NCBI RefSeq assembly: GCF_006546775.1
Contig: NZ_VICE01000111.1
Location: 25,820-89,819 of the forward strand
From: Marilutibacter aestuarii
Lineage (GTDB): Bacteria; Pseudomonadota; Gammaproteobacteria; Xanthomonadales; Xanthomonadaceae
Length of the DNA stretch: 64,000 nt
Reading direction: 5' to 3'
Numbering within the stretch: position 1 is the first letter of the stretch; every line of letters starts with the position of its first letter. This document shows positions 20,396-35,813 of the stretch, piece after piece. A model generated the notes under the pieces. It saw nothing but the letters and a program-made list of their open reading frames with translations. It was not told the DNA's origin and searched no databases. Made by a program: the position numbers and the translations under genes.

Positions 20396-20450
20396 GCGTG
20401 TCCTCTCCCCAGGTGCCAACCGATATCGGAATGATGGTGTGCAGTACGAC

Positions 20451-20466
20451 GACGGGGGTCCCCGTC
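20451..20466. promoter_or_regulatory. Perfect short palindrome in the receptor/permease divergent region
   Basis: GACGGGG (20451-20457), GT, CCCCGTC (20460-20466). It lies 56 bp from the receptor start and 125 bp from the permease start. It may be an operator or a leader hairpin in the receptor mRNA. Confidence 0.35.
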
Positions 20467-20590
20467 CTGGAGCACAGACTAGGAGGGGGCGCCCGGCGCG
20501 ACTGCTGTACCTTCGGACAATGCCCACGCGCCGCCGCGTTGCAGAGACTCCGGACTGTCGAGGGCCCGCCGGGGCGCCGGGGAGCAAGGA

Positions 20591-21994: not shown

Positions 21995-22103
21995 GGCCGC
22001 GGGCTTCACGGGACGGTAGGGCCGACGTTGGAACTGGGGTAGCCGCATCGCGGGTCGCGCCGCACGGCTTCACTCACCCCTTCCCGACCATCGAGGTATC
22101 CCC

Positions 22104-22457
22104 ATGGCCTACGTGCCTCCGCAGCAGCGCAGGATCGGCGCCGCCACCGCCCTGCTGGGCAATCCGCCGCCCCATGACCCCAACCCGATCTTCGCCCAGG
22201 TCCCGCAGGATGCCTGGGCTCAGCGCGGCTACCAGTACACCCTGACGATGCAGTGGGCGAACGTGCCCGTCCCGCAGCTCCCTCCGATCACGGTCCGCGC
22301 CCACGTCCACTACGCCTGGAACGCCAACCTGGCGCGCTGGGACCGGTTTGCCGGCAACGCCTGGATCGAGGACGTGGTCAACTGGAGCACGCCGACCACG
22401 CCCCCGGTCGTGGCGATGGCCCCGGCCCAACCCCCCGACCCGGACTACCACCCCTGA
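22104..22457 (+). CDS. Hypothetical 117-residue protein
   Basis: The protein is Pro-, Ala- and Trp-rich and shows no signal peptide or membrane segment. The N terminus is MAYVPPQQRR and the C terminus a Pro-rich tail ending DPDYHP. A strand-rich middle part (YTLTMQWANV, ITVRAHVHYAWN, ARWDRFAGNAWIEDVVNW) could form a small beta fold. GAGG lies before the ATG and codon use matches the neighbours, so it looks translated. I do not recognise the family. It lies between the permease and dinB on the same strand. Confidence 0.6.
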   Translation: MAYVPPQQRRIGAATALLGNPPPHDPNPIFAQVPQDAWAQRGYQYTLTMQWANVPVPQLPPITVRAHVHYAWNANLARWDRFAGNAWIEDVVNWSTPTTPPVVAMAPAQPPDPDYHP

Positions 22458-22498
22458 GTCCGCCTTCGCGGGCGCCCCGGGCAGGCGCGCCCGCACAC

Positions 22499-22523
22499 CC
22501 TGCTGACGCCCGCTGTCAGCAGG
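22499..22523. promoter_or_regulatory. 9-bp inverted repeat upstream of dinB
   Basis: CCTGCTGAC (22499-22507) and GTCAGCAGG (22515-22523) are exact reverse complements with a 7-nt spacer, ending 26 bp before the dinB ATG. It is not either of the LexA boxes known from Xanthomonas. It could be an operator or an mRNA leader stem. Confidence 0.45.
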
Positions 22524-22549
22524 ACGCGGTATCGTTCCACCGAATCCCG

Positions 22550-23674
22550 ATGCCGTCGCCCGTGTCCGCTGCCCCGCTCCGCAAGATCGTCCATGTCGAC
22601 ATGGATGCGTTCTACGCATCGGTGGAACAGCGCGATGCGCCCGAACTGAAGGGGCAACCGGTCGTGGTGGCCTGGCGCGGCGCGCGCTCGGTGGTGTGCG
22701 CCGCCAGCTACGAGGCGCGACGCTTCGGCGTGCGCTCGGCGATGCCCGCGGTGCGGGCGGAGCGGCTGTGTCCACATGCGGTGTTCGTGCCGCCCGACTT
22801 CCCGCGCTACAAGGCCGTTTCGCGGCAGATCCGGGCGATCTTCGCCCGCCATACCGACCTCATCGAGCCCCTGTCCCTGGACGAGGCGTATCTCGACGTC
22901 ACCGAGACCAAGACCGGGATGCCCTCGGCGACGGCCACCGCCGAGGCCATCCGCGCCGCGATCCGCGAGGAGACCGGCCTGACCGCCTCGGCGGGCATCG
23001 CGCCGAACAAGTTCCTGGCGAAGATCGCCTCGGACTGGCGCAAGCCCGACGGCCAGCTCGTGCTGCGCCCGCGCGACGTCGATGCCTTCCTGCAGCCCTT
23101 GCCGGTCGGGCGGCTCCCCGGCGTCGGCCAGGTCACCGAGCGCCGCCTGGCGCGCCTGGGCATCGCCACGGTGGGCGACCTGCGCGGACTCGGCCAGGCC
23201 GAGCTGGAACGGACGTTCGGCCGCTGGGGTGCGCGCCTGCACCGCCTGTCGATGGGCGTGGACGACAACCCCGTGCAACCCGAACGCCCGACCATGCAGG
23301 TGTCCTCGGAGGACACCTTCCCCGAGGACCTGCCGCTGTCGTCGCTGGCGCCCCATATCCAGCGCCTGGCCGAGAAGACCTGGGCCGGCTACCAGCGCGA
23401 ACGCGCGCGCGATCCGCAGCGCCTGGCCCGCACCGTGGTGCTGAAGCTCAAGACCGCCGACTTCCGCATCCTCACCCGCAGCCTGACGCTGCCGGCGTTG
23501 CCCGCGGACGCGCAGGGACTGGCCGAGGTCGCCTGCGAGCTGCGGCAGCGCGTGGACCTGCCCCGGGAGACGCTTTACCGCCTGGTCGGGGTCGGCCTCT
23601 CGGGCTTCGTCGACGGTGAGGGCGAAACCGCCCAGATCGATCTGTTCGAGGCACGCGACCCGGGCGACGCGTGA
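22550..23674 (+). CDS. dinB: DNA polymerase IV
   Basis: The 374-residue Y-family polymerase has the catalytic motifs HVDMDAFYASVE and EPLSLDEAYLDVT, the helix-hairpin-helix region (LPGVGQVTERRLARLG), and the little-finger domain. Length matches E. coli DinB (351) with a short C-terminal extension. It copies damaged templates with low fidelity. The C terminus ends in a QIDLFEA motif that fits a beta-clamp binding peptide (QxxLF). The start at 22550 has no strong ribosome binding site; a GTG at 22562 is an alternative. It is convergent with the serine hydrolase gene, 9 bp away. Confidence 0.95.
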   Translation: MPSPVSAAPLRKIVHVDMDAFYASVEQRDAPELKGQPVVVAWRGARSVVCAASYEARRFGVRSAMPAVRAERLCPHAVFVPPDFPRYKAVSRQIRAIFARHTDLIEPLSLDEAYLDVTETKTGMPSATATAEAIRAAIREETGLTASAGIAPNKFLAKIASDWRKPDGQLVLRPRDVDAFLQPLPVGRLPGVGQVTERRLARLGIATVGDLRGLGQAELERTFGRWGARLHRLSMGVDDNPVQPERPTMQVSSEDTFPEDLPLSSLAPHIQRLAEKTWAGYQRERARDPQRLARTVVLKLKTADFRILTRSLTLPALPADAQGLAEVACELRQRVDLPRETLYRLVGVGLSGFVDGEGETAQIDLFEARDPGDA

Positions 23675-23683
23675 CGCCGGGCC

Positions 23684-25285
23684 CTATTCGCAGTCGGCGA
23701 TGCGCCGGAAGTCCAGGTCCTCGTAGTCCGAGCTGAAGTCGCCGTCGGGATCGAGCTTGGCCATCGTCATGCGCGTGCCCGCGCCATCGTCGTGGAAATC
23801 CATCCATGCTTCCAGGTCGACGGTGTCGTCGTCCCAGTCCACCAGGGCGCGCTCACCCACCCGCATCACCCGTCCCGACAGCAGTGGCGACATCACCGAT
23901 TGGAAGCGTACGCCGTCCTCCATGGCACAGACCGACACCTCGCCGAACCAGGGGTCGCGGTACCGCCCCAGCCGCACGCCCGGGAAGGTGGCCTCGATCG
24001 GCCGGCGCGAAGTGGTATCCGGCACCCGGGACGCCGAAGGCGCGGTGCGCTCGCTTTCCAGGCGCGCGGCGAAGGCGTTCACGTCCGCGTCCGACCCTGG
24101 ACGGGTGAAGTACTTGAGCAGCGCGGCGGTCAGCACCGTCCGCGCGGCGCTGCCCTCGCCGTTGATCATCACCACGAAGCCGGACTTCCGGTCCGGCAAC
24201 AGCATCAGCACCGAGTACATGCCCGACAAGGTGCCGGTATGCGACACGGTCCATTCGCCGTCGACGTCAGCCAGGCGCCAGCCATAACCGTAGGCACGGA
24301 CATGCGTGTCGTCCCATTCGCGGTTGCGCGCCGACACCGGCAGCGGCGTGTGCGCGGCCCACATCTCGCCCCGTTGCCGCTCCGACAACCACTCGCGCTG
24401 CGCGGGCGTCGGGGCGAGCCAGTTCAGGGCCCATGCCAACATGTCGTCCAGGCTGCAGCGGATGCCACCGGCGGCGGCCGAGGTGATGGCCGGCACCGTG
24501 TCGCCGTCGGTGCGGATGGCGATGTTGCCCGTGTCGGTCCGCATGTGCGGCTGGGCGACGCTGCCCGCCGCGGCACGACTCCATTCGCCGACGCGGCATG
24601 AATCCAGGCCGAGCGGCTCGAAGACCTCCCGCCGCAGCAGCACCTCGTAGGCCTCGCCGCCGACCGCGGCGGCGACTTCCCCGGCCACCACGTACATCAG
24701 GTTGTCGTAGGCGTAGCCCGACCGGAAGCTGCGTTCGGGCTTCAGGTGGGCCAGGCCGGCGATGATGTCCTCGCGGCCGAAACGGTTGGGTTCGGGCCAC
24801 AGCATCAGGTCGCCGGCGCCCTCCGGCAGGCCGGAGTTGTGCACCAGCAGGTCGCGCACCTGCATTTCCCGCGTGACCCACGGGTCATGCATACGGAACG
24901 ACGGCAGGTGGCGGACGACTGGATCGTCCCAGGCCAGCAGGCCGGCATCGACCTGGCGCGCCAGCAGCGAGGCGGTCATGGCCTTGCTGTTGGAGGCGAT
25001 CTTGAAGAGCGTGGCGGGCAGCACCGGCTCGCCCGAGCCGGCGACGGTCTCGCCGCCCGTGCGCACCCAGGCGACCTCGCCGTCCTCGATCACGCCCATT
25101 GCCATGCCCGGCAGCGCGTAGCGCGCCATGGCCTGCTCGAAGATCCGGTCGAGGGCAGCCGGGTCGCGGGCCCCCGCGGGCGACTGCGCGAGCACCACTG
25201 CAGGCGCGCACGCGACCGCCACCGACAGGACGAAACCTGGCAGCCGGCGCGAGGGTCGGGGACCGGCAATGCCGCCCCCCTTCAC
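23684..25285 (-). CDS. Exported serine hydrolase, class C beta-lactamase/DD-peptidase fold
   Basis: The 533-residue protein carries the three active-site motifs of the beta-lactamase/penicillin-binding fold: SNSK (Ser98, Lys101), the Tyr motif YDN, and HTG in place of KTG. A C-terminal domain of about 150 residues follows. The start is taken as GTG at 25285 (GGGAAG upstream, then a compact signal peptide ending near AVVLAQ), because ATG at 25345 would give an over-long N region and overlap the upstream receptor stop. Such proteins act as esterases or D-amino-acid peptidases. Being third in a putative murein-peptide operon, a D,D- or D-aminopeptidase role is plausible but unproven. Confidence 0.82.
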   Translation of the reverse strand: MKGGGIAGPRPSRRLPGFVLSVAVACAPAVVLAQSPAGARDPAALDRIFEQAMARYALPGMAMGVIEDGEVAWVRTGGETVAGSGEPVLPATLFKIASNSKAMTASLLARQVDAGLLAWDDPVVRHLPSFRMHDPWVTREMQVRDLLVHNSGLPEGAGDLMLWPEPNRFGREDIIAGLAHLKPERSFRSGYAYDNLMYVVAGEVAAAVGGEAYEVLLRREVFEPLGLDSCRVGEWSRAAAGSVAQPHMRTDTGNIAIRTDGDTVPAITSAAAGGIRCSLDDMLAWALNWLAPTPAQREWLSERQRGEMWAAHTPLPVSARNREWDDTHVRAYGYGWRLADVDGEWTVSHTGTLSGMYSVLMLLPDRKSGFVVMINGEGSAARTVLTAALLKYFTRPGSDADVNAFAARLESERTAPSASRVPDTTSRRPIEATFPGVRLGRYRDPWFGEVSVCAMEDGVRFQSVMSPLLSGRVMRVGERALVDWDDDTVDLEAWMDFHDDGAGTRMTMAKLDPDGDFSSDYEDLDFRRIADCE

Positions 25286-25332
25286 CCTCGCTTCCCGCGC
25301 CCGCGCCAGCGGCGCGCGCGCGTCCGGCTGGC

Positions 25333-28300
25333 TCAGTAGCGCCATGCGAGCGTCAGCTGGCCATAGCGCGGCGATTGCAGGAAGCGCTCCTTGCCGAAGT
25401 ACTCGTCGCGGTCGCCCACGCCCGGCTCGAGGTCCTGGTAGACCCACACAGGCTCCTGCCGGTTGAACAGGTTGTAGACCGAAAGCCGTGCTTCGAAGGT
25501 GCCGAACGAGAACGCCCGCTCGTAGCCCAGGCTCATTCCCACGTCGATGATCCAGGGCATGTTGCCCTCGCCGCCACGCGGGGAGTGCTCGAACACGCGG
25601 TCGGCCGTGCTCCAGGTATCACCCTCCTGGGCGCCCTCCGGTGGCGTGCAGTTTTCTACGCAGATGAAGTAGCTGTGGTAGCTCTTCCAGTTGTAGGGAT
25701 TGCCCACGCCGAAGGCCGTGATCGGCCCGCCCGAACGCGCGTCCAGCGTGGCGCCCACGCTCCAGTTGTCGTTGAACGCATAGCTGCCGCGGAGCTTGAT
25801 CTGGTGGCGGTGGTCGTTCGCCAGCGGTCCGTCGCCCCGGTAGTTGACGAAGGGATCGTCGAAGTTCTCGGTGCGCCCGGTGTCGCCGAAGTTGGTGTCG
25901 GTATTGACCGGGCCCTCGGCGTTGCCCTCGTTCCAGGACAGGGTGTACGCAGCGTTGAAGGCCCACTTGCCATCCCATGCGCGGTCGACCTGGAACTCCA
26001 GCGCCTTGTACGTGCGCCGGGGCTTGACCCAGCCGCGCTGCCCGGTCGGGGTCGAGTCCACGTATTCCCATTCGCCGTTGACGAACGCGTAGTTGTCGGA
26101 CTCGGTCCAATAGCCCATCTTCGAGGTATCGACGGTCAGGTAGCCGTCGTCGACGCCGTCGCAGTCGGTGTCGCCCCAGACCGTCACGTCCTCGCCCGGG
26201 TTGGCCATCACCCAGCGGCTGGCGATGCGCCCGCAATGGGTGGCGGTCAGGTTGATGTCGTCGATGGCGTTGTGGAGCTTGCGGTAGGTGCCGCGCACGC
26301 CCCAGGACCACGTCGAGTTGATCTGCTGCTGGAAGCCCAGGATCAGTTCGTCCTGGTAGACGGGATCCATGTCCGCGTCGACCTCGGCACGCAGGTCACC
26401 GACCGTGCCGTCGCCCTGGCTGTTGTCGAAGCCGAACTGGGTGCCGAGGATCGGAACCGCGTACTGCACGCCGTCCCGCTCCTGGATGTCCCAGCCGTCG
26501 AAGCCGTAGTACGTGCGCTCATCGAGCAGTGCCCCACCCTGCTTGATGTTGATGACGTTGGCGACGGGCAGGAAGTAGCGGCCCACGTTGCCGAACAGCT
26601 TGGTGGTGCCATCGCCCTTCATGTCCCAGGCGAAGCCGGCGCGCGGGGCCCACATGTCGTCCATCTCGATGTAGGTACGTCCCTCCGCGTCGCGGTTGTC
26701 GAAGGTCTCGTTGCGGATGCCGAGGTTCAGGACCACGTTGTCGGTGACCGACCAGTTGTCCTCGAGGTAGAAGGCTTCGTTGCGGCTCTCGAACTCGCCG
26801 AAGATGGAATAGCGGCGCGCGCGGACGTACGCGAAGTAGCCCGGCGGCACGATGCCGGCGCCGGAGATCTGTGCGCCGGGGGTGGTCGAGTACACGTTGT
26901 ACTGGATGCCACCGGGACCGGCATAGTCCTGGCTGAGGTCGGAGGTGTTGGTCTCGCGGTCCAGCCCGAAGCGCAGCAGATGGTCGCCCAGCGCCCACTC
27001 GAAGTCCGCGCGGGTCTGCTCGCGCTGGTCGTTGCGGTCGTAGATGGTGGCGTTGTTTGTACAGCCCAGCGGCACGCCCGGATCGACCACGCCGGCACCG
27101 GCGGTCACGTAGTTGCAGTCGCCGTCGTTGGGCGAGGCGGCCACGCTGTTGCGCTCGTTGCGGCCGTGCATGAGCTTCATCGACAGGGTGTCGGTGAAAT
27201 GCGACGTCCAGGTCAGCGCCCAGTTGTCGCCGCCGGATTCGGAATAGGCCTCGCTGAGCTTGTCGCCGCGCGCGCCTGCATCGAAGTCGTAGGCGTAGGT
27301 GGTGTTGTCGACACGGTTGTCGTTCGAGAACGCCATCAGGCTGAGCAGGTTGTTGTCGGTGAGCTGCCAGTCCAGCGTCGTCGCCCAGAAACCGTTGTCC
27401 GAGTCGCCGCGGGTGAAGCTGGTGCCGGCGTTGCTGGTGCTCTCGGGCTTGACGTCGCGCGCTTCGTACATGGCGAAGAAGAACAGGCGGTCCTTCATGA
27501 TCGGGCCCGACGCCCAGGCATTGAGGGTGGCCAGGTCCGAACTGTCCTTGCTGCGCGTGAGGTAGCGGTCGCCATCGAGGTAGCTGTCGCGCGCCGAGGA
27601 CTGCCAGTCGCGCGGTTCCAGGACCAGCTTGGCGCCATAGTGGAAGTCGTTGCTGCCCGACTTGGCGATCGCGTTCACGACGCCGCCAGTGGTGCGCCCG
27701 TACTCGACGGAGTAGCCGCCGGTCTTGACCTGGAACTCCTGGTAGAAGTCGAACGGCGCCTGCGAGAAGCCGACGCGGTTGTAGAAGTCGGTGACGTTGA
27801 GGCCATTGATGTAGAAGGCGTTCTCGGCGACGGAGGAGCCGCCGAAGGAGATGCCGCCGAAGCCCGCGCTGCCTCCCGCCACGCCCGGTGCCAGCAGGGC
27901 CACCGACGCGACGTCGCGCTCCACCGGCAGGCGTTCGATCTCCTCGGCAGTGATGTTGGTGGCCGATTCGGTCGAGGTGACGTCGACTGGCGAGATCACT
28001 CGGGAACCGATGACCTGGACCGCCGAAAGGCTGACCACGCCGTCGCTGCCGAGGTTGATGGTGGTCGCGTTGCCCAGCGACACGCCGACTTCGACCGGTT
28101 CGCCCAGGGGCTGGCCGTCGCGGCTGACCTGCAGCGAGTAGCTGCCCACCGGCAGCTGCGACAGCCGGTAGCTGCCGTCGGCGCCGGCGGCGACCGAGCG
28201 CGAGAGCCCCGTCTCGGTATTGGTGACGGTGATCCGGTCCCCGGCGTTCGCGCGGCCTGCGATGGCGCCGTTCACGTTCTGGGCGTGGACGATCCCCGGC

Positions 28301-28368
28301 GCCATCGACGCCAGGCCGATCCCCATCGCCACGAATAACGCACTCTTCCGCAATGCCGTGCCGTACAT
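25333..28368 (-). CDS. TonB-dependent receptor with N-terminal carboxypeptidase-regulatory domain (Oar-like)
   Basis: The 1011-residue protein has a signal peptide (ending near GIVHAQ), then a CarboxypepD_reg-like beta domain of about 70 residues (VTNTETGLSRSVAAGADGSYRLSQLPVGSYSLQV). A plug follows (AVQVIGSRV, YINGLNV, VKTGGYSVEYGRTTGGVVNAI), then a barrel ending LTLAWRY. Oar-like receptors of xanthomonads take up peptides or large ligands; the substrate here is inferred from neighbours to be a peptide or muropeptide. GGGGGA precedes the ATG. It is 48 bp downstream of the transglutaminase-like gene and 47 bp upstream of the serine hydrolase, so the three form an operon. Confidence 0.9.
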   Translation of the reverse strand: MYGTALRKSALFVAMGIGLASMAPGIVHAQNVNGAIAGRANAGDRITVTNTETGLSRSVAAGADGSYRLSQLPVGSYSLQVSRDGQPLGEPVEVGVSLGNATTINLGSDGVVSLSAVQVIGSRVISPVDVTSTESATNITAEEIERLPVERDVASVALLAPGVAGGSAGFGGISFGGSSVAENAFYINGLNVTDFYNRVGFSQAPFDFYQEFQVKTGGYSVEYGRTTGGVVNAIAKSGSNDFHYGAKLVLEPRDWQSSARDSYLDGDRYLTRSKDSSDLATLNAWASGPIMKDRLFFFAMYEARDVKPESTSNAGTSFTRGDSDNGFWATTLDWQLTDNNLLSLMAFSNDNRVDNTTYAYDFDAGARGDKLSEAYSESGGDNWALTWTSHFTDTLSMKLMHGRNERNSVAASPNDGDCNYVTAGAGVVDPGVPLGCTNNATIYDRNDQREQTRADFEWALGDHLLRFGLDRETNTSDLSQDYAGPGGIQYNVYSTTPGAQISGAGIVPPGYFAYVRARRYSIFGEFESRNEAFYLEDNWSVTDNVVLNLGIRNETFDNRDAEGRTYIEMDDMWAPRAGFAWDMKGDGTTKLFGNVGRYFLPVANVINIKQGGALLDERTYYGFDGWDIQERDGVQYAVPILGTQFGFDNSQGDGTVGDLRAEVDADMDPVYQDELILGFQQQINSTWSWGVRGTYRKLHNAIDDINLTATHCGRIASRWVMANPGEDVTVWGDTDCDGVDDGYLTVDTSKMGYWTESDNYAFVNGEWEYVDSTPTGQRGWVKPRRTYKALEFQVDRAWDGKWAFNAAYTLSWNEGNAEGPVNTDTNFGDTGRTENFDDPFVNYRGDGPLANDHRHQIKLRGSYAFNDNWSVGATLDARSGGPITAFGVGNPYNWKSYHSYFICVENCTPPEGAQEGDTWSTADRVFEHSPRGGEGNMPWIIDVGMSLGYERAFSFGTFEARLSVYNLFNRQEPVWVYQDLEPGVGDRDEYFGKERFLQSPRYGQLTLAWRY

Positions 28369-28416
28369 GTGTATCCCCCGAACTGGTTGCTGTGGTTGAG
28401 GTAGGTAACGTCCCTG

Positions 28417-29919
28417 TTAGTGCGCGGTGGCGTTGCCCGACAGGACCCGCGCCGAGAAGCGGTAGTCCCACTGGTCGAAGTAGAGGTTGCCCCCCGGCCA
28501 CTCCACTTCGCCGCGCTGCGAATCCACGGTCTCCGACCGGAAATGCTCCTTGGGCGGGAAGAACTCCCGCGAATATTCGTCGTTGAAGGCGATGCGATAG
28601 GCGTCCAAACCGCCGAGGTAGAAATCGCGCAGGCCCTCGTCCGGGCTGTCGAGCAGGCCGGTGGTCACGTCCATCGGCACCCAGCCGTAGGGCGCCAGGT
28701 AGAGCCAGCCCCAGTCGTGCAGGTTGTCGTAGTCGCCGTCGGAATAGACCATGCCCGACTGCCATCGGGTGGGGATGCCGTTGAGGCGAAGCAGGGCCAT
28801 CAGCAGCAGGGTCTGTTGCCCGCAGTCGGCGTGGCCGGTGCGCAGCGCGTGCTCGCTTATGTTGGAGATCGTCGAATATTCCCGCGCCGAGGCCCAGGGG
28901 ATCCTGTCGACCGCGGCGAACAGCCTGCGCGCGATGCGCGCCGGATTCTCCTCGTCGCCCACGACCTGCTTCGAGAAGCGCCGCAGGGCGTCGGTGAACA
29001 CGATGTGCGGCGGGCGCTCGGCGGTGAACTCAAGCAGCTCCGGCGGTAGCGTCACGCGGCTGACGCGCGCGGGATCGATGGCGTGGTACTGGCCGCGCAC
29101 GGTCAGTTCGTAGCTCACCGAGAATTCGGTCGGCACGCCGGCCACGGCCTGCTTTTCCAGGTACACCGTGCGCTGCAGCGCCGACTCCGGCGCCACGACC
29201 GGGCGGCCGGGCTCGCTGCCGAGCAGGCGGATGTCGTCCTGCTGGCCCGGGATCGCGCGCGGATAGGGAATCCAGGCCCTGAGCGTCTCTCCGGCCGGCA
29301 CCGCGTCGGCCTCCACGACCAGGGACTGCTCCACCCGGATGCGTCGCGGCGCCACGCCGGGCCGGCCCATCGCCAGCGCGGCGTCGCGCACCTCGACGTG
29401 GTGCGGGCCCAGCGTTTCCATCGGCCCCATCCGCGGCGCGGGTGTTTCCCGTCGACGCATCGCGGCTTCCGCGTTCACCCGGAACAGGTTGGGAACGGCG
29501 CGCGCGAAGTAGCGGGGCCGGCCATCGATGTCGAGGTGCTCCAGGGCGCCGGAGGCCGACCAGGCGGCGAACTCGCCGCTCGACAGGTCCGGGATCTCCT
29601 TGCGCAGACGCTCGAGCGTGGCCGGCTCGTCGAGCGGGAAATCCAGCAGGATGCGTCGCATGCGCTCGCGCTCGAACGCCAGCGCACGGCGAGCCTCGGC
29701 CGGGGTGGCGTCATCGGCCAGGGCCTCGGCGATGCGGCGCTCGGCGTCCGCAAAGCGCCCTGCGTCGACCCGGGCGACGACTTCACGTACGGTATCGGGA
29801 GGACCCGGGCGGGCGGGCACCATCAGGCTCCAGCCCAGCAGCGCCACGCACCCCAGCCGCCGGGCCTGCATGCGCAGGCCGGCCAGGGTCTCGACAGGTG
29901 TGCTTGGGTCGTTCGCCAT
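28417..29919 (-). CDS. Transglutaminase-like domain protein
   Basis: The 500-residue protein has a C-terminal transglutaminase-like core with the triad Cys366 (GHADCGQQTLLL), His401 (NLHDWGW) and Asp417 (VPMDVTT). Bacterial members of this superfamily are usually cysteine peptidases. Upstream is a long N-terminal region with a beta-sandwich-like part (IRVEQSLVVEADAVPAGETLRAWIPYP) as in other bacterial members. The start at 29919 is taken as the first plausible ATG; an internal ATG at 29871 precedes a basic and hydrophobic segment (MQARRLGCVALLGWSLMVPA) that could be a signal peptide, so the true start may be there. It opens the leftward operon. Confidence 0.8.
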   Translation of the reverse strand: MANDPSTPVETLAGLRMQARRLGCVALLGWSLMVPARPGPPDTVREVVARVDAGRFADAERRIAEALADDATPAEARRALAFERERMRRILLDFPLDEPATLERLRKEIPDLSSGEFAAWSASGALEHLDIDGRPRYFARAVPNLFRVNAEAAMRRRETPAPRMGPMETLGPHHVEVRDAALAMGRPGVAPRRIRVEQSLVVEADAVPAGETLRAWIPYPRAIPGQQDDIRLLGSEPGRPVVAPESALQRTVYLEKQAVAGVPTEFSVSYELTVRGQYHAIDPARVSRVTLPPELLEFTAERPPHIVFTDALRRFSKQVVGDEENPARIARRLFAAVDRIPWASAREYSTISNISEHALRTGHADCGQQTLLLMALLRLNGIPTRWQSGMVYSDGDYDNLHDWGWLYLAPYGWVPMDVTTGLLDSPDEGLRDFYLGGLDAYRIAFNDEYSREFFPPKEHFRSETVDSQRGEVEWPGGNLYFDQWDYRFSARVLSGNATAH

Positions 29920-29952
29920 GACGCGGCCCCCGGCCGGCTGGAGATGACATCG

Positions 29953-30023
29953 ATGTAACACGCAGACGGGATGGTGGTCAATAATTTATTCCGAATTGAT
30001 ACTTTCATCGAAATAAGTATTCT
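29953..30023. promoter_or_regulatory. Divergent promoters with an operator-like palindrome
   Basis: This AT-rich patch stands out from its GC-rich surroundings. Rightward, TTGATA (29996-30001), 16 bp, TATTCT (30018-30023) is a good sigma-70 promoter. ATACTT (29999-30004), 10 bp, AAGTAT (30015-30020) is a perfect inverted repeat lying between and partly over these boxes, where a repressor would block polymerase. Leftward, TTGACC (29981-29976), 17 bp, TTACAT (29958-29953) is a weaker candidate. A second small palindrome AATAATTTATT is at 29980-29990. The RpiR-type regulator of the rightward operon is the natural candidate to bind. Confidence 0.6.
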
Positions 30024-30117
30024 CAAGGCCCGAGACCCCGGTGCGAAGCCGGGATTGCGGGCGCTGCCGAACCAGCGGTCGGACGGGCGCTGGACCGATC
30101 AAACGGGGATGCCGAAG

Positions 30118-31557
30118 ATGCGTGTTGCCATGCCGATGCTCCTGTCCCGCACGCCCCGCCGCGCCCACGCCGGCCTGGGCGTCCTGCTCGCCCTCCTGGC
30201 TGGATTCGGCCTGCTGGCGACGACCGCCGCGGCGGCGCGGCCGCCCGCGACCCCGGGGACGGGCGTGCCCGGCGTCCAGGACGCCCAGCTCTCACCGGAC
30301 TTCTGGACCTCGCGCCTGGACGCACCCGACGGCGTGGTGCTCGACGCGAACGCCATCGACCGCCTCAATGCGCGCCTGTTCGCCGAAGACGGCTCGATGC
30401 ACGACCTCGAGCGCTTCCCCGTGTCGATGCCGCGCGCGGACGTCGAAGCACTTGTGAAGGGCCTGTCCTCGCCCCCCACGCGTTCCCTGTTCGTTGCCGG
30501 CGGCTTGCCGTTCCAGGACGTGGATGCGCTCGAACCCGGCCTCGGCCTGGACCGCCTGCCCGACACGGTCGGTACCCGCTGGGGCCTGGTGGTGCATCGC
30601 GCCGACATGCGCACCTTCCCCACCGACGTCCGGGTATTCAGCGCCCCGGGCGACACCGACATCGACCGCTTCCAGGAAACCGCCCTGTTCCCCGGCACGC
30701 CCCTGGCGATCCTGCACGAGAGCCGGGACGGGGAATGGTGGTTCGCGGTGAGTCCCCGCTACGCCGCCTGGATCCGCAAGTCCGCGGTCGCCAGCGGCAC
30801 GCGCGGGGACGTGCTCGGCTACGGCCGCAGGACGCCCTACGTCGTGGTCACGGGCGCCACCGCACGCACCGTGCATACGCCGGAAGCGCCCCGGGTGTCC
30901 GACCTGCAACTGGACATGGGCGTGCGCGTGCCGCTGCTGGCGGACTGGCCGCCGGCCACGCCGGTCAATGGCCAGGCGGCGTACACCGGCCACGTGGTCG
31001 AACTGCCCGTCCGCGACGACGACGGCGCGCTGCGCTTCGCGCCCGCGCTGCTGCCGCGAAGCCAGGACGTCGCCACCGCCTACCTGCCGCTGACGCCGGC
31101 GGGCGTCATCGAACAGGGCTTCAAGTTCCTCGGCGAACGCTACGGTTGGGGCCATGCCTACGATGCCCGGGACTGCAGCGGCTTCGTATCCGAGGTCTAC
31201 CGCGCCTTCGGCATCCAGCTGCCACGCAACACCAGCGCGCAGGGCGTGAGCCCGGTCTTCAACACGGTCCGTTTCGACGAGGGCGACGACCGCGCCTCGC
31301 GGCTCGCGGTCCTGCGCCAGCTGCAGGTCGGCGACCTGGTCTATGTCCCGGGCCACGTGATGATGGTGATCGGCCAGTACGAAGGCGCGCCGTACGTGAT
31401 CCACGACGTGACCGGGATCAGTGTCCGCGACGACGACGGCGGACTGCGACGGATCGTGCTCAACGGTGTCTCGGTGACGCCGCTCGAGCCCCTGCAGTCG
31501 GGCGAGGACGCCAGCCTCGTCGACCGCATCTACAGCATCCAGAAGATCCGCCCATGA
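30118..31557 (+). CDS. SH3 / NlpC-P60 gamma-D-glutamyl endopeptidase (YkfC type)
   Basis: The 479-residue exported protein has a signal peptide (ALLAGFGLLATTAAAA), an SH3-like domain pair (about 155-300, with RADMRTFPTDVRVFS and SRDGEWWFAVSPRYAAWIRKSAV), and a C-terminal NlpC/P60 domain. Its catalytic Cys353 is in YDARDCSGFVSEVYRAFG, with His413 in VPGHVMMVIG and a third polar residue His429. YkfC-type enzymes cleave the L-Ala-gamma-D-Glu peptide to release dipeptides. The epimerase that acts on that dipeptide is the next gene. The start at 30118 (second of two close ATGs) is chosen so that the signal peptide starts MRVAMPMLL; 30109 is possible. Confidence 0.87.
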   Translation: MRVAMPMLLSRTPRRAHAGLGVLLALLAGFGLLATTAAAARPPATPGTGVPGVQDAQLSPDFWTSRLDAPDGVVLDANAIDRLNARLFAEDGSMHDLERFPVSMPRADVEALVKGLSSPPTRSLFVAGGLPFQDVDALEPGLGLDRLPDTVGTRWGLVVHRADMRTFPTDVRVFSAPGDTDIDRFQETALFPGTPLAILHESRDGEWWFAVSPRYAAWIRKSAVASGTRGDVLGYGRRTPYVVVTGATARTVHTPEAPRVSDLQLDMGVRVPLLADWPPATPVNGQAAYTGHVVELPVRDDDGALRFAPALLPRSQDVATAYLPLTPAGVIEQGFKFLGERYGWGHAYDARDCSGFVSEVYRAFGIQLPRNTSAQGVSPVFNTVRFDEGDDRASRLAVLRQLQVGDLVYVPGHVMMVIGQYEGAPYVIHDVTGISVRDDDGGLRRIVLNGVSVTPLEPLQSGEDASLVDRIYSIQKIRP

Positions 31558-31645
31558 GGCCCGGACAGGCGGATACCGCACCCTTCGCGCACCGGTCCGG
31601 CCGCCGCGACCCCGCTGCCCCGGATGGCCGCCACGAGGAAGCCCG

Positions 31646-32743
31646 ATGAAGATCACCGACATCCAGGTCGGCCTGCTGCGCGTCCCGCTGAAGACGCCGT
31701 TCAAGACCGCCCTGCGCACCGTCGACACCGTCGAGGACATCATCGTCCTGGTGCGCACCGACACCGGCCATGTCGGCCATGGCGAGGCCGCCGCGACCGC
31801 GGTCATCACCGGCGATACGCACGGCTCGATCGTCGAGGCCATCCGGCGCTACATCCGTCCGCGCCTGCTGGGCGCGGATATCGCCGACCTCAACCGCAAC
31901 ACGCGCCTGGTGCAGACCGCGCTGGAACGGAACTTCAGCGCCAAGGCCGCGGTGGAAATCGCGCTCTACGACCTGTTCGGGCAGCTCTACGATGCGCCGC
32001 TCTACCGCCTGCTCGGCGGTGGCGATCCGGTCATCACCACCGACATCACCATCAGCGTCGACTACATCGACAAGATGGTCGCCGACTCGGTGGCCGCGGT
32101 CGATCGCGGCTTCGAGTCGCTGAAGATCAAGGTCGGCAAGGACATCGGCCTGGACATCGAGCGGGTCAAGGCCGTCCATGCCGCGGTCGAGGGCCGCGCC
32201 CTGCTCCGACTGGACGCCAACCAGGGCTGGACCGCAAAGCAGGCGGTGTTCGCGATGCAGGCGCTCGAGGACGCCGGCGTGGCGCTGGAACTGCTGGAGC
32301 AGCCGGTCAAGGCGCATGACATCCGCGGCCTGAAGTACGTGACCGACCGCGTCCACACGCCGGTGATGGCCGACGAAAGCGTGTTCGGCCCGACCGAGGT
32401 GATCGACCTGATCAAGATGCACGCCGCCGACATCATCAACATCAAGCTGATGAAGACCGGCGGCCTGTCGAATGCCATCCGCATCGCCGACATCGCCTCG
32501 CTGTACGGCGTGGAGTGCATGATCGGCTGCATGATCGAGACCAGCATCAGTGTCGCCGCCGCGGTCCACCTGGCGGTGGCCAAGGCCGACGCGATCACCA
32601 AGGTCGATCTCGACGGTCCTTCGCTTTGCCGCCATGACCCGGTCGACGGCGGCGTACAGTTCAACGAGTCGGAAATATCGATCGTGGATGCACCCGGCCT
32701 GGGGATCCGCGAGGTCCGCGGGCTGGAGATGCTGCCCGAATGA
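31646..32743 (+). CDS. L-Ala-D/L-Glu epimerase (dipeptide epimerase)
   Basis: The 365-residue enolase-superfamily enzyme interconverts L-Ala-D-Glu and L-Ala-L-Glu, making murein dipeptides usable by ordinary peptidases. Visible sites are the KIK bases (Lys160, Lys162), metal ligands Asp190, Glu218 and Asp243, the opposing Lys267, and the DxD motif Asp321/Asp323 that binds the dipeptide amino group in characterised epimerases. Length equals that of B. subtilis YkfB and E. coli YcjG. GAGGAAG precedes the ATG. The specific dipeptide may vary within the family, but the DxD and the NlpC/P60 neighbour favour Ala-Glu. Confidence 0.9.
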   Translation: MKITDIQVGLLRVPLKTPFKTALRTVDTVEDIIVLVRTDTGHVGHGEAAATAVITGDTHGSIVEAIRRYIRPRLLGADIADLNRNTRLVQTALERNFSAKAAVEIALYDLFGQLYDAPLYRLLGGGDPVITTDITISVDYIDKMVADSVAAVDRGFESLKIKVGKDIGLDIERVKAVHAAVEGRALLRLDANQGWTAKQAVFAMQALEDAGVALELLEQPVKAHDIRGLKYVTDRVHTPVMADESVFGPTEVIDLIKMHAADIINIKLMKTGGLSNAIRIADIASLYGVECMIGCMIETSISVAAAVHLAVAKADAITKVDLDGPSLCRHDPVDGGVQFNESEISIVDAPGLGIREVRGLEMLPE

Positions 32744-33654
32744 CGCGTGGCGGCCCGCCCCCGCAGGACCCAGCCCCCACCGAGGCGGGCGCCGCCGGCG
32801 CGGAGGCTTCGCCGCTGCTCAGGGTACGGGCCGAGCGCGACCGCATGTCCGCGATCGAACGGCGGATCGCCGACTTCCTGCTCGACAACGCCCACCTGTT
32901 GCGCGACTACTCCTCGCAGCAACTGGCCAGTGCGCTGGGGATCAGCCAGTCCAGCGTGGTCAAGTTCAGCCAGAAGCTGGGGTTCAAGGGCTACCCCGAC
33001 CTGAAGTTCTGCATCGGCGAAGCGCTCGCGCGCGAGACCGCCGGCATCGCCGCGCGCCCCACGTCGACGCGCGACCTCGCGCCTCACGTGGCACTCGCCG
33101 AATCGCTGTGGCGCGGCAAGGCCCGCGCCGAACAGGAGACCCGCCTGCTCAACCCGCTCGAACAGATCGACCGGATCGTGCAGGCCATCGTCGGCGCCGA
33201 CCGCGTCTTCATCTGCGGGCTCGGCCAGGACGGCATCCACGCGCGCGGCCTGGGCCTGCGCCTGTCGCTGATCGGCATCGCCACGGTCGAACACGCCGAT
33301 CCGGTGCTGATGGCCGCCAGCGTCAGCACGGCGGGCCCCGGCGACGTGCTGGTCGTGTTCTCAGAACATGGCCGCCAACCCGAGCTGTGCCATATCAGCC
33401 GGCAGTTCCGCGCGCGCCGCGGCAAGACCGTCTCGGTCACCCGGCACGGCGCCAACCCGTTGCGCGCGCATGCCGACGCGGCGCTGCTGGTGTCCGCGCA
33501 CGACGACGACGCCCACGTCGAACCCCTGCTCTACCAGGCCGCGCTGCAGCACATGCTCGACCTGGTGATCGTGCTGGTGTGCCAACATTCGGACGACTAC
33601 CTCGACCACTACAGGAGCAGCGCGGAGCATGTCCAGAAGATGCTCGATCCCTGA
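32740..33654 (+). CDS. RpiR/MurR-family transcriptional regulator
   Basis: The 304-residue protein has an N-terminal HTH_6 domain (IERRIADFLLDNAHLLRDYSSQQLASALGISQSSVVKFSQKLGFKGYPDLK) and a C-terminal SIS sugar-isomerase-like domain (VFICGLGQDGIHARGLGLRL, VVFSEHGRQPE). The family includes MurR, which senses N-acetylmuramic acid 6-phosphate in E. coli; the ligand here is unknown and may be a muropeptide or sugar fragment. The first 30 residues are Pro/Ala-rich and poorly conserved, so an internal start is possible. The ATG overlaps the epimerase stop by 4 bp. It probably controls the two divergent operons from the site near 30.0 kb. Confidence 0.88.
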   Translation: MTRGGPPPQDPAPTEAGAAGAEASPLLRVRAERDRMSAIERRIADFLLDNAHLLRDYSSQQLASALGISQSSVVKFSQKLGFKGYPDLKFCIGEALARETAGIAARPTSTRDLAPHVALAESLWRGKARAEQETRLLNPLEQIDRIVQAIVGADRVFICGLGQDGIHARGLGLRLSLIGIATVEHADPVLMAASVSTAGPGDVLVVFSEHGRQPELCHISRQFRARRGKTVSVTRHGANPLRAHADAALLVSAHDDDAHVEPLLYQAALQHMLDLVIVLVCQHSDDYLDHYRSSAEHVQKMLDP

Positions 33655-34444
33655 GAGGCCCGCCGCCCTCGTCGCCACTGCCCTGCTCGTGGCGGCCATG
33701 GGCACGGCCCACGCCGCCACGCCCTGGACGCAGGCCCGGCAGATGGTGGTCGTCACCACCCCCGACTGGGACGCCGATGGCGGGCGCATGCAGCGCTTCG
33801 AGAAGCACGGCGCGGGCTGGCGCCCCGTCGCCGCGTCCGAGCCGGTGCGCATCGGTCGCGCCGGCAGCGCATGGGGCCTGGGCCTGCACCCGGACCAGCC
33901 CGGAACGCGCAAGCGTGAAGGCGACGGGCGCAGCCCCGCCGGCATCTTCGGCATCGGCGACGCGTTCGGTTATGCCGCCGATGCGCGTACCGCGCTGCCC
34001 TACCGGTCCATGCAGGCGGGCGACTACTGCATCGACGTGCCCGGCTCGCCGCTCTACAACCGCATCGTCAACACCGAAGAAGTCGGCGCGGCGGCGGTCA
34101 AGGGCTCGACCGAACCGATGCGCCGGGACCTGCACGCCGATGGCGACCAACGCTACGCGCAGGGTTTCGTGATCGACCACAATCCGGGCAACCGCAGCCC
34201 GGCGGGCAGTTGCATCTTCGCGCACGTGTGGAAGGCGGCGGACGTCGCCACCGCAGGCTGCACCGCGATGCCGCCCGAACGCGTGGCCGCCCTGCTCGAC
34301 TGGCTGGACCCGGCGGCGCAGCCGGTGTTTGTGCTGCTGCCCGAAGCTGCTTACGCTCGGCTGCAGGCGCCCTGGCACCTGCCCGTGCTGCCACCCGTCC
34401 CGACGTCCAACCCGCCTGCCGCCAAGGACCCCCCGAATGACTGA
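33629..34444 (+). CDS. Exported L,D-transpeptidase-fold protein
   Basis: The 271-residue protein has a signal peptide (ALLVAAMGTAHA) and a YkuD/ErfK-type domain with His199 (FAHVWK) and the nucleophile Cys211 in TAGCTAM. The canonical motif is HGCxN-like, so the G-C-T-A variant is a divergent version close to the 'L,D-transpeptidase catalytic domain' proteins that act as L,D-carboxypeptidases or hydrolases. There is a Pro-rich C-terminal tail. It overlaps the regulator gene by 26 bp and the permease gene by 8 bp, so it is firmly in the operon. Cleaving or trimming murein tetrapeptides would fit the cluster, but this is inferred. Confidence 0.8.
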   Translation: MSRRCSIPERPAALVATALLVAAMGTAHAATPWTQARQMVVVTTPDWDADGGRMQRFEKHGAGWRPVAASEPVRIGRAGSAWGLGLHPDQPGTRKREGDGRSPAGIFGIGDAFGYAADARTALPYRSMQAGDYCIDVPGSPLYNRIVNTEEVGAAAVKGSTEPMRRDLHADGDQRYAQGFVIDHNPGNRSPAGSCIFAHVWKAADVATAGCTAMPPERVAALLDWLDPAAQPVFVLLPEAAYARLQAPWHLPVLPPVPTSNPPAAKDPPND

Positions 34445-35813
34445 GCCCCTTCGCCCGACCGTCGACCACCCGGCTGCGGGCGAACCCCCTGCCGGCATCG
34501 ACCACGACACCGGCATGGTGCGGGCGGTCAGCCGCTGGCAGATCGTGGGCCTGTCCATCAACGACGTCATCGGCAGCGGCATCTACCTGCTGCCCGCCAG
34601 CACCGCGCTGTTGCTGGGGCCGGCGAGCCTGTGGGCGGTGTTGCTGGCAGGCGTCGCCGTCGGCCTGCTCGTGCTGTGCTATGCCCAGGCCGGCAGCTAC
34701 TACGACGATGCCGGCGGCAGCTATCTCTACGCCCGCGATGCGTTCGGCGACTTCATCGGTTTCGAGGTCGGCTGGATGACCTGGCTGACCCGCGTGGCAT
34801 CCGCCGCGGCCCTGGGCAGCGGCCTGGCGCTGGCGGTGTCCAAGTTCTGGGCGCCCGCGGGCGAAGGCTTGGGCTGGACCGCGGTGGTGGTCGGCTCGCT
34901 CGCGTTCCTGACTTTCATCAACGTGGTGGGCGTGCGCACCGCCGCGCGCACCGGCGTCGTCCTCGTGCTGGCCAAGCTGGTACCCCTGCTGTTCTTCATC
35001 GCCGTGGGGGCGTTCTTCGTCGACTGGTCGCAGGCCGTGGCCATGGGCGCACCGCCGACCGACAAGCTGGGCGAAGGCGCCTTGCTGCTGCTCTACGCCT
35101 ACGCCGGCTTCGAGAACACCCCGGCGGCGGCAGGCGAATTCCGCAATCCACGCCGCGACGTGCCGTTCGCCCTGATCACGATGATCGTGGTGGTGACCCT
35201 GATCTACGTGGCCGTGCAGGTCGTCGCCCAGGGCACGGTGCCCGATCTCGCCTCGTCCAGGTCCCCGCTGGCGGATGCCGCCGAGACCTTTGCCGGCCCC
35301 GCCGGCGCGCTGTTGCTGACATTGGGCGCGGCGGTCTCGATCCTGGGCAGCAACAGCAACACCATGCTGTTCGGCCCGCGCTACCTCTACGCGCTTTCAG
35401 CCGACGGCTATGGCCCGGCCGCGCTGTCGCGCGTGCATCCGCGCTACCGCACCCCGACCATCGCGATCATCGTCACCGGCGTGCTATCGACCCTGCTGGT
35501 GCTGGGCCAGCAGTTCGGCGGCAGCGGCGTTTCGCAGGCCTTCGCCAACCTCGCGCTGCTCTCGGTGGTCGCGCGGCTGTGCAGCTACATCGGCACCGCG
35601 GCTTCGTTGCTGGTGCTGCAGAAGCGCTACCGGGATCGCCCCAATGCCCTGAGCCTGCCGGGCGGCCCCCTGATCCCCGTCCTCGCCCTGCTGGTGTCGC
35701 TGGCCCTGGTCGCGAGCGCGGGGGTGGGCAACCTGGTCGCAGCCGCGGTGGCGATCGCGGTGGGCGCCGTGATCTACCTGATGAGACGCCGCCCGGCGGC
35801 GTCCCACCGCTGA
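34437..35813 (+). CDS. APC superfamily amino acid permease
   Basis: The 458-residue protein has twelve predicted transmembrane segments and the APC-type helix-1 motif NDVIGSGIYLLP plus AYAGFENTPAAAGEFRNPRRDVPFAL. It would import an amino acid or perhaps a dipeptide. Its position as the last gene of the operon suggests import of the Ala/Glu or dipeptide products. AAGGA lies 8 nt before the ATG at 34437, which overlaps the stop of the upstream gene. The frame is open upstream to 34329, but homology starts after the chosen ATG. Confidence 0.88.
   Translation: MTEPLRPTVDHPAAGEPPAGIDHDTGMVRAVSRWQIVGLSINDVIGSGIYLLPASTALLLGPASLWAVLLAGVAVGLLVLCYAQAGSYYDDAGGSYLYARDAFGDFIGFEVGWMTWLTRVASAAALGSGLALAVSKFWAPAGEGLGWTAVVVGSLAFLTFINVVGVRTAARTGVVLVLAKLVPLLFFIAVGAFFVDWSQAVAMGAPPTDKLGEGALLLLYAYAGFENTPAAAGEFRNPRRDVPFALITMIVVVTLIYVAVQVVAQGTVPDLASSRSPLADAAETFAGPAGALLLTLGAAVSILGSNSNTMLFGPRYLYALSADGYGPAALSRVHPRYRTPTIAIIVTGVLSTLLVLGQQFGGSGVSQAFANLALLSVVARLCSYIGTAASLLVLQKRYRDRPNALSLPGGPLIPVLALLVSLALVASAGVGNLVAAAVAIAVGAVIYLMRRRPAASHR

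Follow-up and report, generated by a model that had tools for sequence, protein, structure and literature searches.

The window analysed here, a 64-kb stretch of contig C71 from the 3.49-Mb genome of Marilutibacter aestuarii, carries at 23684-35813 a group of eight open reading frames (ORFs), three leftward and five rightward, which we consider as a candidate locus for the use of peptidoglycan peptides. The leftward string runs from a transglutaminase-like enzyme through an Oar-like TonB receptor to an S12 serine hydrolase, and the rightward string comprises, in this order, an SH3b-NlpC/P60 enzyme, a dipeptide epimerase, an RpiR regulator, a YkuD-fold enzyme and an APC permease. Inside each string, neighbouring genes overlap or are separated by gaps of at most about 90 bp. 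A first-pass annotation had listed eight genes of these families at this position; Pfam confirmed all of them, and we corrected some of the starts. The genes and regulatory features are as follows.

23684..25345, minus strand: secreted serine hydrolase of the MEROPS S12 type (PF00144; SxxK/YxN/HTG); the ORF extends to a GTG at 25447, with the probable start at about 25345
25333..28368, minus strand: outer-membrane transporter, TonB-dependent and Oar-like, from a group bound to the locus (Pfam domains)
28417..29919, minus strand: exported transglutaminase-like cysteine enzyme (C380/H415/D431 in ORF numbering); the ORF extends to a GTG at 29961
29953..29981, minus strand: possible leftward promoter, found by eye, with TTGACC (-35) overlapping operator 1, a 17-bp spacer and TTACAT (-10)
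29977..29991, plus strand: operator 1, GTCAATAATTTATTC, predicted RpiR site (comparison of loci)
29996..30023, plus strand: predicted rightward promoter, TTGATA-N16-TATTCT (promoter scan)
30010..30023, plus strand: operator 2, GAAATAAGTATTCT, with two mismatches to GGAATAnnTATTCC (comparison of loci)
30109..31557, plus strand: SH3b-NlpC/P60 enzyme (Pfam SH3_6 and NLPC_P60)
31646..32743, plus strand: predicted cytoplasmic L-Ala-D/L-Glu (dipeptide) epimerase (MR_MLE in Pfam; residues)
32740..33654, plus strand: RpiR/MurR-family regulator (HTH_6 and SIS)
33629..34444, plus strand: exported YkuD-fold enzyme, predicted L,D-carboxypeptidase (Ala at Cys+2; fold)
34437..35813, plus strand: APC-family amino-acid permease (AA_permease_2 in Pfam)

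The NlpC/P60 gene probably starts at 30109, because the ATG at 29971 lies upstream of both the conserved operator and the predicted promoter. Reading of the sequence also placed the probable starts of the transglutaminase gene at 29919 instead of 29961, of the serine hydrolase gene at about 25345 and of the permease gene at about 34437. By eye, export signals were recognised in the transglutaminase-like, serine hydrolase, NlpC/P60 and YkuD proteins, and none in the epimerase.

Conservation of the gene set was followed in two collections of loci: 40 orthologous stretches from the family of the window's host, and the best 80 of 267 relatives, picked by alignment of the transglutaminase in named genomes. 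The 80 named loci were thus chosen by one of the genes in question and are related to each other, so that counts among them are not independent; the two collections also share genomes (for example L032/L072 and L034/L074). The nearest named relative found was Lysobacter spongiae, whose transglutaminase is 91% identical, and the host genera include Lysobacter, Luteimonas, Pseudoxanthomonas, Stenotrophomonas, Xanthomonas, Dyella, Rhodanobacter, Luteibacter, Dokdonella, Steroidobacter and others. In the 10 kb to each side of the transglutaminase gene we found NlpC/P60 in 79 of the 80 loci, Oar and epimerase in 78 each, RpiR in 77, YkuD in 66 and the serine hydrolase in 77, a count from which L133 should be discounted because its match is a 27% paralogue alone. 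All six core genes lay within 10 kb in 75/80 named loci, and four of the five exceptions were cut by contig ends (L073, L081, L082 and L093 ended early in this way). The transglutaminase gene adjoins the Oar gene in 78/80 loci, those showing both, and gene order was largely kept in the 40 orthologous stretches.

The genes are also linked when family genomes are searched individually. The epimerase gene was present in 90 of 149 family genomes (E <= 1e-60), the NlpC gene in 98 (E <= 1e-40) and the transglutaminase gene in 69 (E <= 1e-20); all 69 also contain the epimerase gene, at a distance of 12 kb or less in 67, while in the remaining two, G141 and G007, the two genes sit on different contigs. 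Receptor copies of at least 48% identity occurred in 70 genomes, in 66 of them within 12 kb of the epimerase gene, and paralogues among the matches listed reached at most 41%. The hypergeometric value for this linkage, 5e-24, overstates the evidence since the genomes are related; by these sequence comparisons, linkage of the locus genes is plain despite that relatedness, and the arrangement has been kept far beyond chance. A class-level scan for the transglutaminase detected it in 4 of 369 genomes (E <= 1e-30), all from the window's family, and this draw undersamples the class, because Steroidobacter-type and Rhodanobacter loci turned up among the named genomes. The claim made at first pass that the eight genes form a coherent set was upheld in that the two arms stay linked, around a common operator region, in Xanthomonadales and Steroidobacter-type genomes, whereas the suggestion that the locus is apt for a bacteriolytic genus is weakened, the locus being found also in Stenotrophomonas, Pseudoxanthomonas, Dyella, Rhodanobacter and Steroidobacter.

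The flanks do not share this conservation. The window's locus is bordered on the left by a DinB-like polymerase-IV gene (22253-23674, named from reading of its translation alone) and on the right by a DJ-1/PfpI-family gene (Pfam), and among the 40 orthologous stretches these DinB-like and PfpI-like flanks were seen in the nearest relative, L032, only. The right-hand neighbour is the better control, because the left one falls at or past the edge of many stretches. Two genes in the genome searches gave two partial overlapping matches each, which may reflect a frame break or a sequencing error: the epimerase gene at G081:C7:105558-106639 and the transglutaminase gene at G133:C1:1396801-1398203.

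The region between the divergent arms contains two conserved AT-rich sites, GTCAATAATTTATTC (operator 1) and GGAATAnnTATTCC (operator 2). Operator 1, at two mismatches or fewer, was found upstream of the NlpC or DUF819 gene in 31/31 loci with RpiR, as against 0/7 without it (that is, without a tblastn match at E 1e-8), where the best sites had 6 to 8 mismatches; this count covers 38 of the 40 stretches, L062 and L069 being left out as their stretches lack the NlpC gene. The association gives a Fisher value of 8e-8, which likewise overstates the evidence since the genomes are related. The seven loci without an RpiR match (L039, L042, L045, L049, L050, L065 and L070) have NlpC and epimerase genes and neither operator 1 nor the transglutaminase gene, and none has a close Oar, L050 showing a 28% match; this suggests from gene content that they represent a simpler form of the locus. 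Since L038 and L040 possess RpiR and operator 1 in the absence of transglutaminase and Oar, the site is tied to the regulator, not to the receptor. Operator 1 occurs once in the genome at two mismatches or fewer, and a wider regulon acting through it was therefore rejected.

Operator 2 was found at two mismatches or fewer in 48/80 regions and at three or fewer in 72/80 (79 named loci plus the window), compared with 3/1600 shuffled sequences at two mismatches or fewer, a test that is biased because the consensus was drawn from the same sequences. In a less biased count, GAATA-N2-TATTC occurred in 20/80 regions, whereas no gapped word of this form exceeded 6 in five shuffles. Across the whole window, four sites were found at three mismatches or fewer against 3.17 expected, which is insignificant, and operator 2 is thus distinct by its position and conservation only. 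It overlaps the -10 element of the predicted rightward promoter, the single promoter-like match in 12.7 kb (0.6 expected in shuffles, not significant alone), while operator 1 overlaps the -35 element of the possible leftward promoter, which was seen by eye and missed by the promoter scan of the locus. A terminator scan of the locus returned 4 candidates against 4.5 expected in shuffles, i.e. nothing above shuffles. The regulator itself contains the HTH_6 and SIS domains of the RpiR superfamily and scored 90.9 bits against a cut-off of 408 for the MurR equivalog NF012026. From the position of these sites, both arms are predicted to respond to one regulator, through binding and repression that we infer. 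The first-pass annotation had made its reading depend on co-expression of the receptor and hydrolases with the epimerase operon; the operator in the common promoter points to such co-regulation as a prediction.

The substrate class is indicated by the epimerase and by genes that accompany it in other genomes. Its nearest relative among solved structures was the L-Ala-D/L-Glu epimerase of B. subtilis (1jpm/1tkk), at E 1.2e-98. Arg24, the catalytic Lys, Asp and Glu residues of the enolase superfamily and a C-terminal DxD have roles in L-Ala-D/L-Glu epimerases, and R24, K160, D190, E218, D243, K267, D321 and D323 were identical in all 117-118 loci covering them; the 118 loci of this survey are not 118 separate species, since orthologous stretches and named loci overlap. 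The protein scored below the NCBIfam epimerase equivalog cut-offs (248.6 vs 500 bits for NF041118 and 118.9 vs 343 for NF011708), models which we read as describing other lineages. By its conserved residues the enzyme would be of the L-Ala-D/L-Glu type, in agreement with the Ala-Glu epimerase with a DxD motif named at first pass. The same genome holds a distant second epimerase-family gene (G000:C114:55381-56277), 34% identical to the locus epimerase.

Accessory enzymes were counted in the 80 loci by tblastn (E <= 1e-10), and 74 have at least one: 65 encode an M15 VanX-like dipeptidase, 31 LysA (diaminopimelate decarboxylase), 17 an M19 dipeptidase and 15 an AmpD-like amidase. A single representative per type was compared with NCBIfam models, where the decarboxylase, at 459.6 bits, passed the cut-off of TIGR01048 (297.9); the VanX-like representative scored 139 against a cut-off of 27 for Pfam Peptidase_M15. 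In a comparison of 15 hand-chosen genomes, a second LysA-like gene was present elsewhere in 10/10 genomes with a locus copy, and a single LysA-like gene in 5/5 without one. Because all ten carriers keep another LysA-like gene elsewhere, the locus decarboxylase is an added, locus-bound enzyme; the copy at L051:387-1652 (minus strand) is 57-76% identical to the locus copies of nine other genomes as opposed to 35-40% for copies elsewhere. Judged by gene content, these accessory genes are the strongest pointer to peptidoglycan peptides as the substrate, and diaminopimelate (DAP) decarboxylase, Glu epimerase and VanX-like dipeptidase together name the peptidoglycan stem peptide better than any one family does. 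The substrate class is, on these comparisons, well supported, and the exact substrate is presumed.

The catalytic residues of the locus enzymes are conserved among orthologues. The NlpC/P60 enzyme retains the catalytic Cys, two His and the S1-site Tyr, Trp, Asp and Ser of B. cereus YkfC, whose catalytic and gamma-D-Glu-binding positions we took from the accessible part of PMC2954226: Y391, W393, D401, C402, S403 and H462 were present in 117/117 loci and H478 in 116/117. The SH3b domain is present by Pfam, and the alignment to 3h41 stops short of SH3b Tyr118. YkfC Asp256, which the same portion of PMC2954226 ties to the free N-terminal L-Ala, is replaced by Asn, and a strict YkfC assignment was therefore rejected. 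The best solved relative is 3m1u (E 1.2e-28), ahead of 3h41, and 3m1u likewise has Asn at the Asp256 position; the 3m1u enzyme is said to have been called a cell-wall lysin in a 2015 mBio paper. Since Asn replaces Asp256 as in 3m1u, the locus enzyme may, to judge from this residue, act on the intact wall beyond free peptides alone. The 'SH3-NlpC/P60 endopeptidase' of the first-pass annotation has these domains and catalytic residues but lacks the free-peptide signature of YkfC.

The YkuD protein gave PF03734 as its sole Pfam match (25.4 bits against a cut-off of 23.4), without the NTF2 domain, and C211, H199 and Ala213 at Cys+2 were invariant in 29 sequences. Many orthologues look lipoprotein-like by eye. 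No relative was found in the PDB by sequence (best E 0.26). The nearest folds of the predicted structure were Pgp2 (Z 12.4, root-mean-square deviation (rmsd) 2.6, 137 residues aligned), Csd6 (12.2), YkuD (11.2), Bd1075 (10.9) and DpaA (9.5), a small margin; identity to Csd6, Pgp2 and Bd1075 is about 15%, and with YkuD itself at Z 11.2 the fold alone is indecisive. According to the accessible part of PMC8938487, Cys+2 is Arg in most L,D-transpeptidases and Ala in Csd6 and Pgp2. The locus enzyme thus shares the YkuD fold with the L,D-carboxypeptidases Csd6, Pgp2 and Bd1075, and this Ala with the first two, but it differs from them in the missing NTF2 match, and YafK-like enzymes also have Ala (PMC8938487, same part). 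In the genome, no PF02016 match to an S66 LdcA was found (E <= 0.001), a search in which the control genomes E. coli and B. subtilis do match. Because of the Ala at Cys+2, the Pgp2 and Csd6 folds and the lack of an S66 LdcA match, an L,D-carboxypeptidase is the more likely function on the structural model and our best guess. A transpeptidase role was judged less likely, there being no Arg at Cys+2 and the closest folds being Pgp2 and Csd6. The fold named at first pass, L,D-transpeptidase, accordingly held for the domain with its Cys and His, the function reading more as carboxypeptidase.

The serine hydrolase matched PF00144 (E 2.9e-63) with invariant SxxK, YxN and HTG motifs, which are typical of S12 enzymes of the DD-peptidase type; the best NCBIfam model was AmpH, at 73 bits below its cut-off of 266. 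On its motifs we predict a DD-carboxypeptidase/endopeptidase or a D-aminopeptidase. The transglutaminase-like enzyme matched Transglut_core (E 7.4e-15), and its predicted structure (mean predicted local distance difference test score, pLDDT, 81) was closest to 3isr, titled putative cysteine protease (Z 19.5, rmsd 3.3, 259 residues aligned). A sequence search of the PDB gave no match at E 0.1, and classing the enzyme through solved sequence relatives was dropped. Structure predictions drew on 31 of 72 listed transglutaminase and 28 of 63 listed YkuD sequences.

The receptor matched PF13620 in Pfam and exceeded the cut-offs for PF25183, PF07715 and PF00593, plug and barrel domains that make it a TonB-dependent transporter. 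'Oar-like' is the label of the first-pass annotation, given from the sequence alone. No relative was found in the PDB by sequence, and no NCBIfam model matched, hence we make no SusC call. In three loci of one genus, g7 (L039, L040 and L070), Oar is absent and a TonB receptor of another type lies directly beside NlpC; other loci without Oar also lack a substitute receptor. Because the g7 loci carry this replacement, we take the outer-membrane receptor to be important to the locus, as the gene arrangement suggests. Elsewhere in the window, a second TonB receptor ORF of a different kind occupies 18206-22048 on the minus strand; its 5' extension is long and probably spurious, and across it, on the opposite strand, runs a GntP-like permease ORF (by eye, 20591-21994).

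For the inner membrane, the permease was an SDF symporter in 56 of the 80 loci and of the APC type in 13, with both in L136; amino acids are the usual cargo of the two families. A membrane family without a known function, DUF819 (PF05684), was found in 30/80 loci (a count from which L122, at 30%, should be discounted), in 25 of them along with SDF or APC. It lies mostly between the transglutaminase and NlpC genes (e.g. L057:11559-12704, minus strand) and is, from its position, a candidate importer of peptidoglycan-peptide products where present.

Taken together, we consider it likely that the locus serves the regulated catabolism of peptidoglycan stem peptides, with both divergent operons controlled by a single regulator of the RpiR family. 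The Oar-type transporter would use TonB energy to carry peptidoglycan peptides or small fragments across the outer membrane into the periplasm. There, to judge from families, motifs and fold, terminal D-Ala would be stripped by the S12 serine hydrolase and by the carboxypeptidase of YkuD fold, the NlpC/P60 enzyme would cleave gamma-D-Glu-meso-diaminopimelate (mDAP), and the transglutaminase-fold cysteine hydrolase might conceivably cleave a further amide or cross-link. The permease would take products into the cytoplasm, where the epimerase, judging by its conserved specificity residues, would convert L-Ala-D-Glu to L-Ala-L-Glu for ordinary dipeptidases. The regulator would bind the two AT-rich palindromes and keep both promoters repressed as long as no ligand derived from peptidoglycan is present. 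As AmpG (contig C125) and Mpl (contig C114), both above cut-off, are encoded away from the locus on C71, this would be an added feeding route and not recycling, and an ordinary recycling operon was judged less likely for the same reason. For the further proposal that this is a dedicated TonB-energised locus of Xanthomonadales and Steroidobacter-type bacteria, a murein counterpart of the polysaccharide utilisation locus in which the Oar-like transporter actively imports stem peptides shed by other bacteria, the periplasmic enzymes take these apart and the cell feeds on DAP, D-Ala and Glu under one regulator, we find the case evenly balanced. Of the scavenging route for foreign peptidoglycan peptides proposed at first pass, the link to peptidoglycan peptides is sustained by the accessory enzymes and epimerase residues, and uptake and the foreign origin of the peptides are presumed.

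Several observations weigh against this reading. At the thresholds used, at least 8 family genomes have NlpC without the epimerase, and 7 of the 38 loci have NlpC and epimerase without the regulator and transglutaminase. Asn stands at the YkfC Asp256 position in 116 of 117 loci and Asp in one. The VanX-like representative fell below its NCBIfam cut-off (196 vs 320 bits, NF033115), as did the AmpD-like one (109 vs 143 bits); the window's own locus is without any accessory enzyme, no M15 match was found in the window's genome, and the single LysA-like gene of that genome sits outside the locus. APC and SDF permeases suit amino acids better, yet the epimerase needs a cytoplasmic dipeptide, the entry of which is left unexplained. 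The support as a whole comes from prediction, by sequence and by structure. In addition, the accessible part of PMC6434023 describes Myxococcus Oar as required for protease export, so that import is not given by the receptor family, and uptake as opposed to export is what we infer here.

Export is indeed the basis of one alternative, in which the Oar-like protein would secrete the transglutaminase-like and NlpC/P60 enzymes against the peptidoglycan of neighbours and the epimerase operon would use what diffuses back. The adjacency of the transglutaminase and Oar genes in 78/80 loci would fit this, as would an NlpC/P60 enzyme in which the Asp of the recycling type is missing and for which 3m1u is a better match than 3h41. 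We nevertheless regard it as unlikely, given that in many loci the unit also includes the regulator, the epimerase, symporters of the amino-acid type and the extra DAP decarboxylase, which fits feeding, and that in L039, L040 and L070, where Oar is missing, a different type of TonB receptor adjoins NlpC. Housekeeping turnover, in which the periplasmic enzymes trim the cell's own peptidoglycan, the products are re-used and the receptor recovers lost peptides, would explain the overlap of the enzyme set with recycling and the failure to find an S66 LdcA in the genome, and own-wall peptides are unavoidable as substrate. It is quite improbable in our view, as the genome encodes AmpG and Mpl away from the locus, the distribution of the locus is patchy (90/149 family genomes have the epimerase), the steps catalysed by the epimerase and the DAP decarboxylase belong to catabolism and the regulator is a dedicated one. 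We give hardly any credence to a general use of other D- or gamma-linked peptides with an incidental likeness to murein enzymes: specificity differs among dipeptide epimerases, S12 hydrolases and transglutaminase folds span a broad range and the curated epimerase cut-offs were missed, but the L-Ala-D/L-Glu specificity residues are conserved and the partners are an M15 VanX-like dipeptidase, a DAP decarboxylase and an amidase.

A stem-peptide catabolic locus would have relatives among known systems. The B. subtilis ykfABCD operon encodes the LdcA-type YkfA, the epimerase YkfB, the NlpC/P60 enzyme YkfC and the ABC component YkfD, and pairing of epimerase and NlpC/P60 is known from this organism. 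The locus resembles it in joining an epimerase, closest to the B. subtilis enzyme among solved structures, and an SH3b-NlpC/P60 enzyme in one operon; it differs in having a YkuD-fold enzyme in place of the S66 carboxypeptidase, no ABC transporter among the eight genes and an NlpC/P60 enzyme without the YkfC Asp, and in adding an outer-membrane receptor, a transglutaminase and serine hydrolase arm and an RpiR regulator. AmpG-Mpl-LdcA recycling in E. coli and Pseudomonas would act on the same stem peptides, but AmpG and Mpl lie outside the locus and LdcA was not found in the genome; we know of no outer-membrane receptor in that pathway. With Myxococcus xanthus Oar, which serves PopC secretion, the receptor shares TonB dependence and PF13620/PF07715/PF25183, a likeness at the level of domains, and unlike that protease exporter it is tied to peptide-catabolism genes. 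Polysaccharide utilisation loci of Bacteroidota, the SusCD systems, combine an outer-membrane receptor, exported hydrolases, a regulator and an inner-membrane transporter; the locus has all four, but no SusD among its eight genes, and would handle peptides instead of glycans.

Every enzyme type in the locus is thus already known, and the receptor is its novel element. Peptidoglycan peptides of Gram-negative bacteria are thought to be recycled via AmpG or Opp-type inner-membrane systems. Among the literature matches listed, which mostly leave out subscription journals, we found no description of a TonB-linked murein-peptide locus; the terms 'TonB-dependent receptor' and 'dipeptide epimerase' came together in a single paper found, PMC6090828, whose accessible part has them in a gene table and a reference only, and a term search of the accessible text of a 2024 review of TonB transporters (PMC11658791) did not find 'muropeptide'. 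Our analysis offers testable roles for a transglutaminase-like family without a PDB sequence relative, for DUF819 and for an RpiR regulator with a candidate operator. If the proposal is true, an energised outer-membrane receptor for peptidoglycan peptides would represent a new substrate class for these transporters, and cell walls would be a specific food niche.

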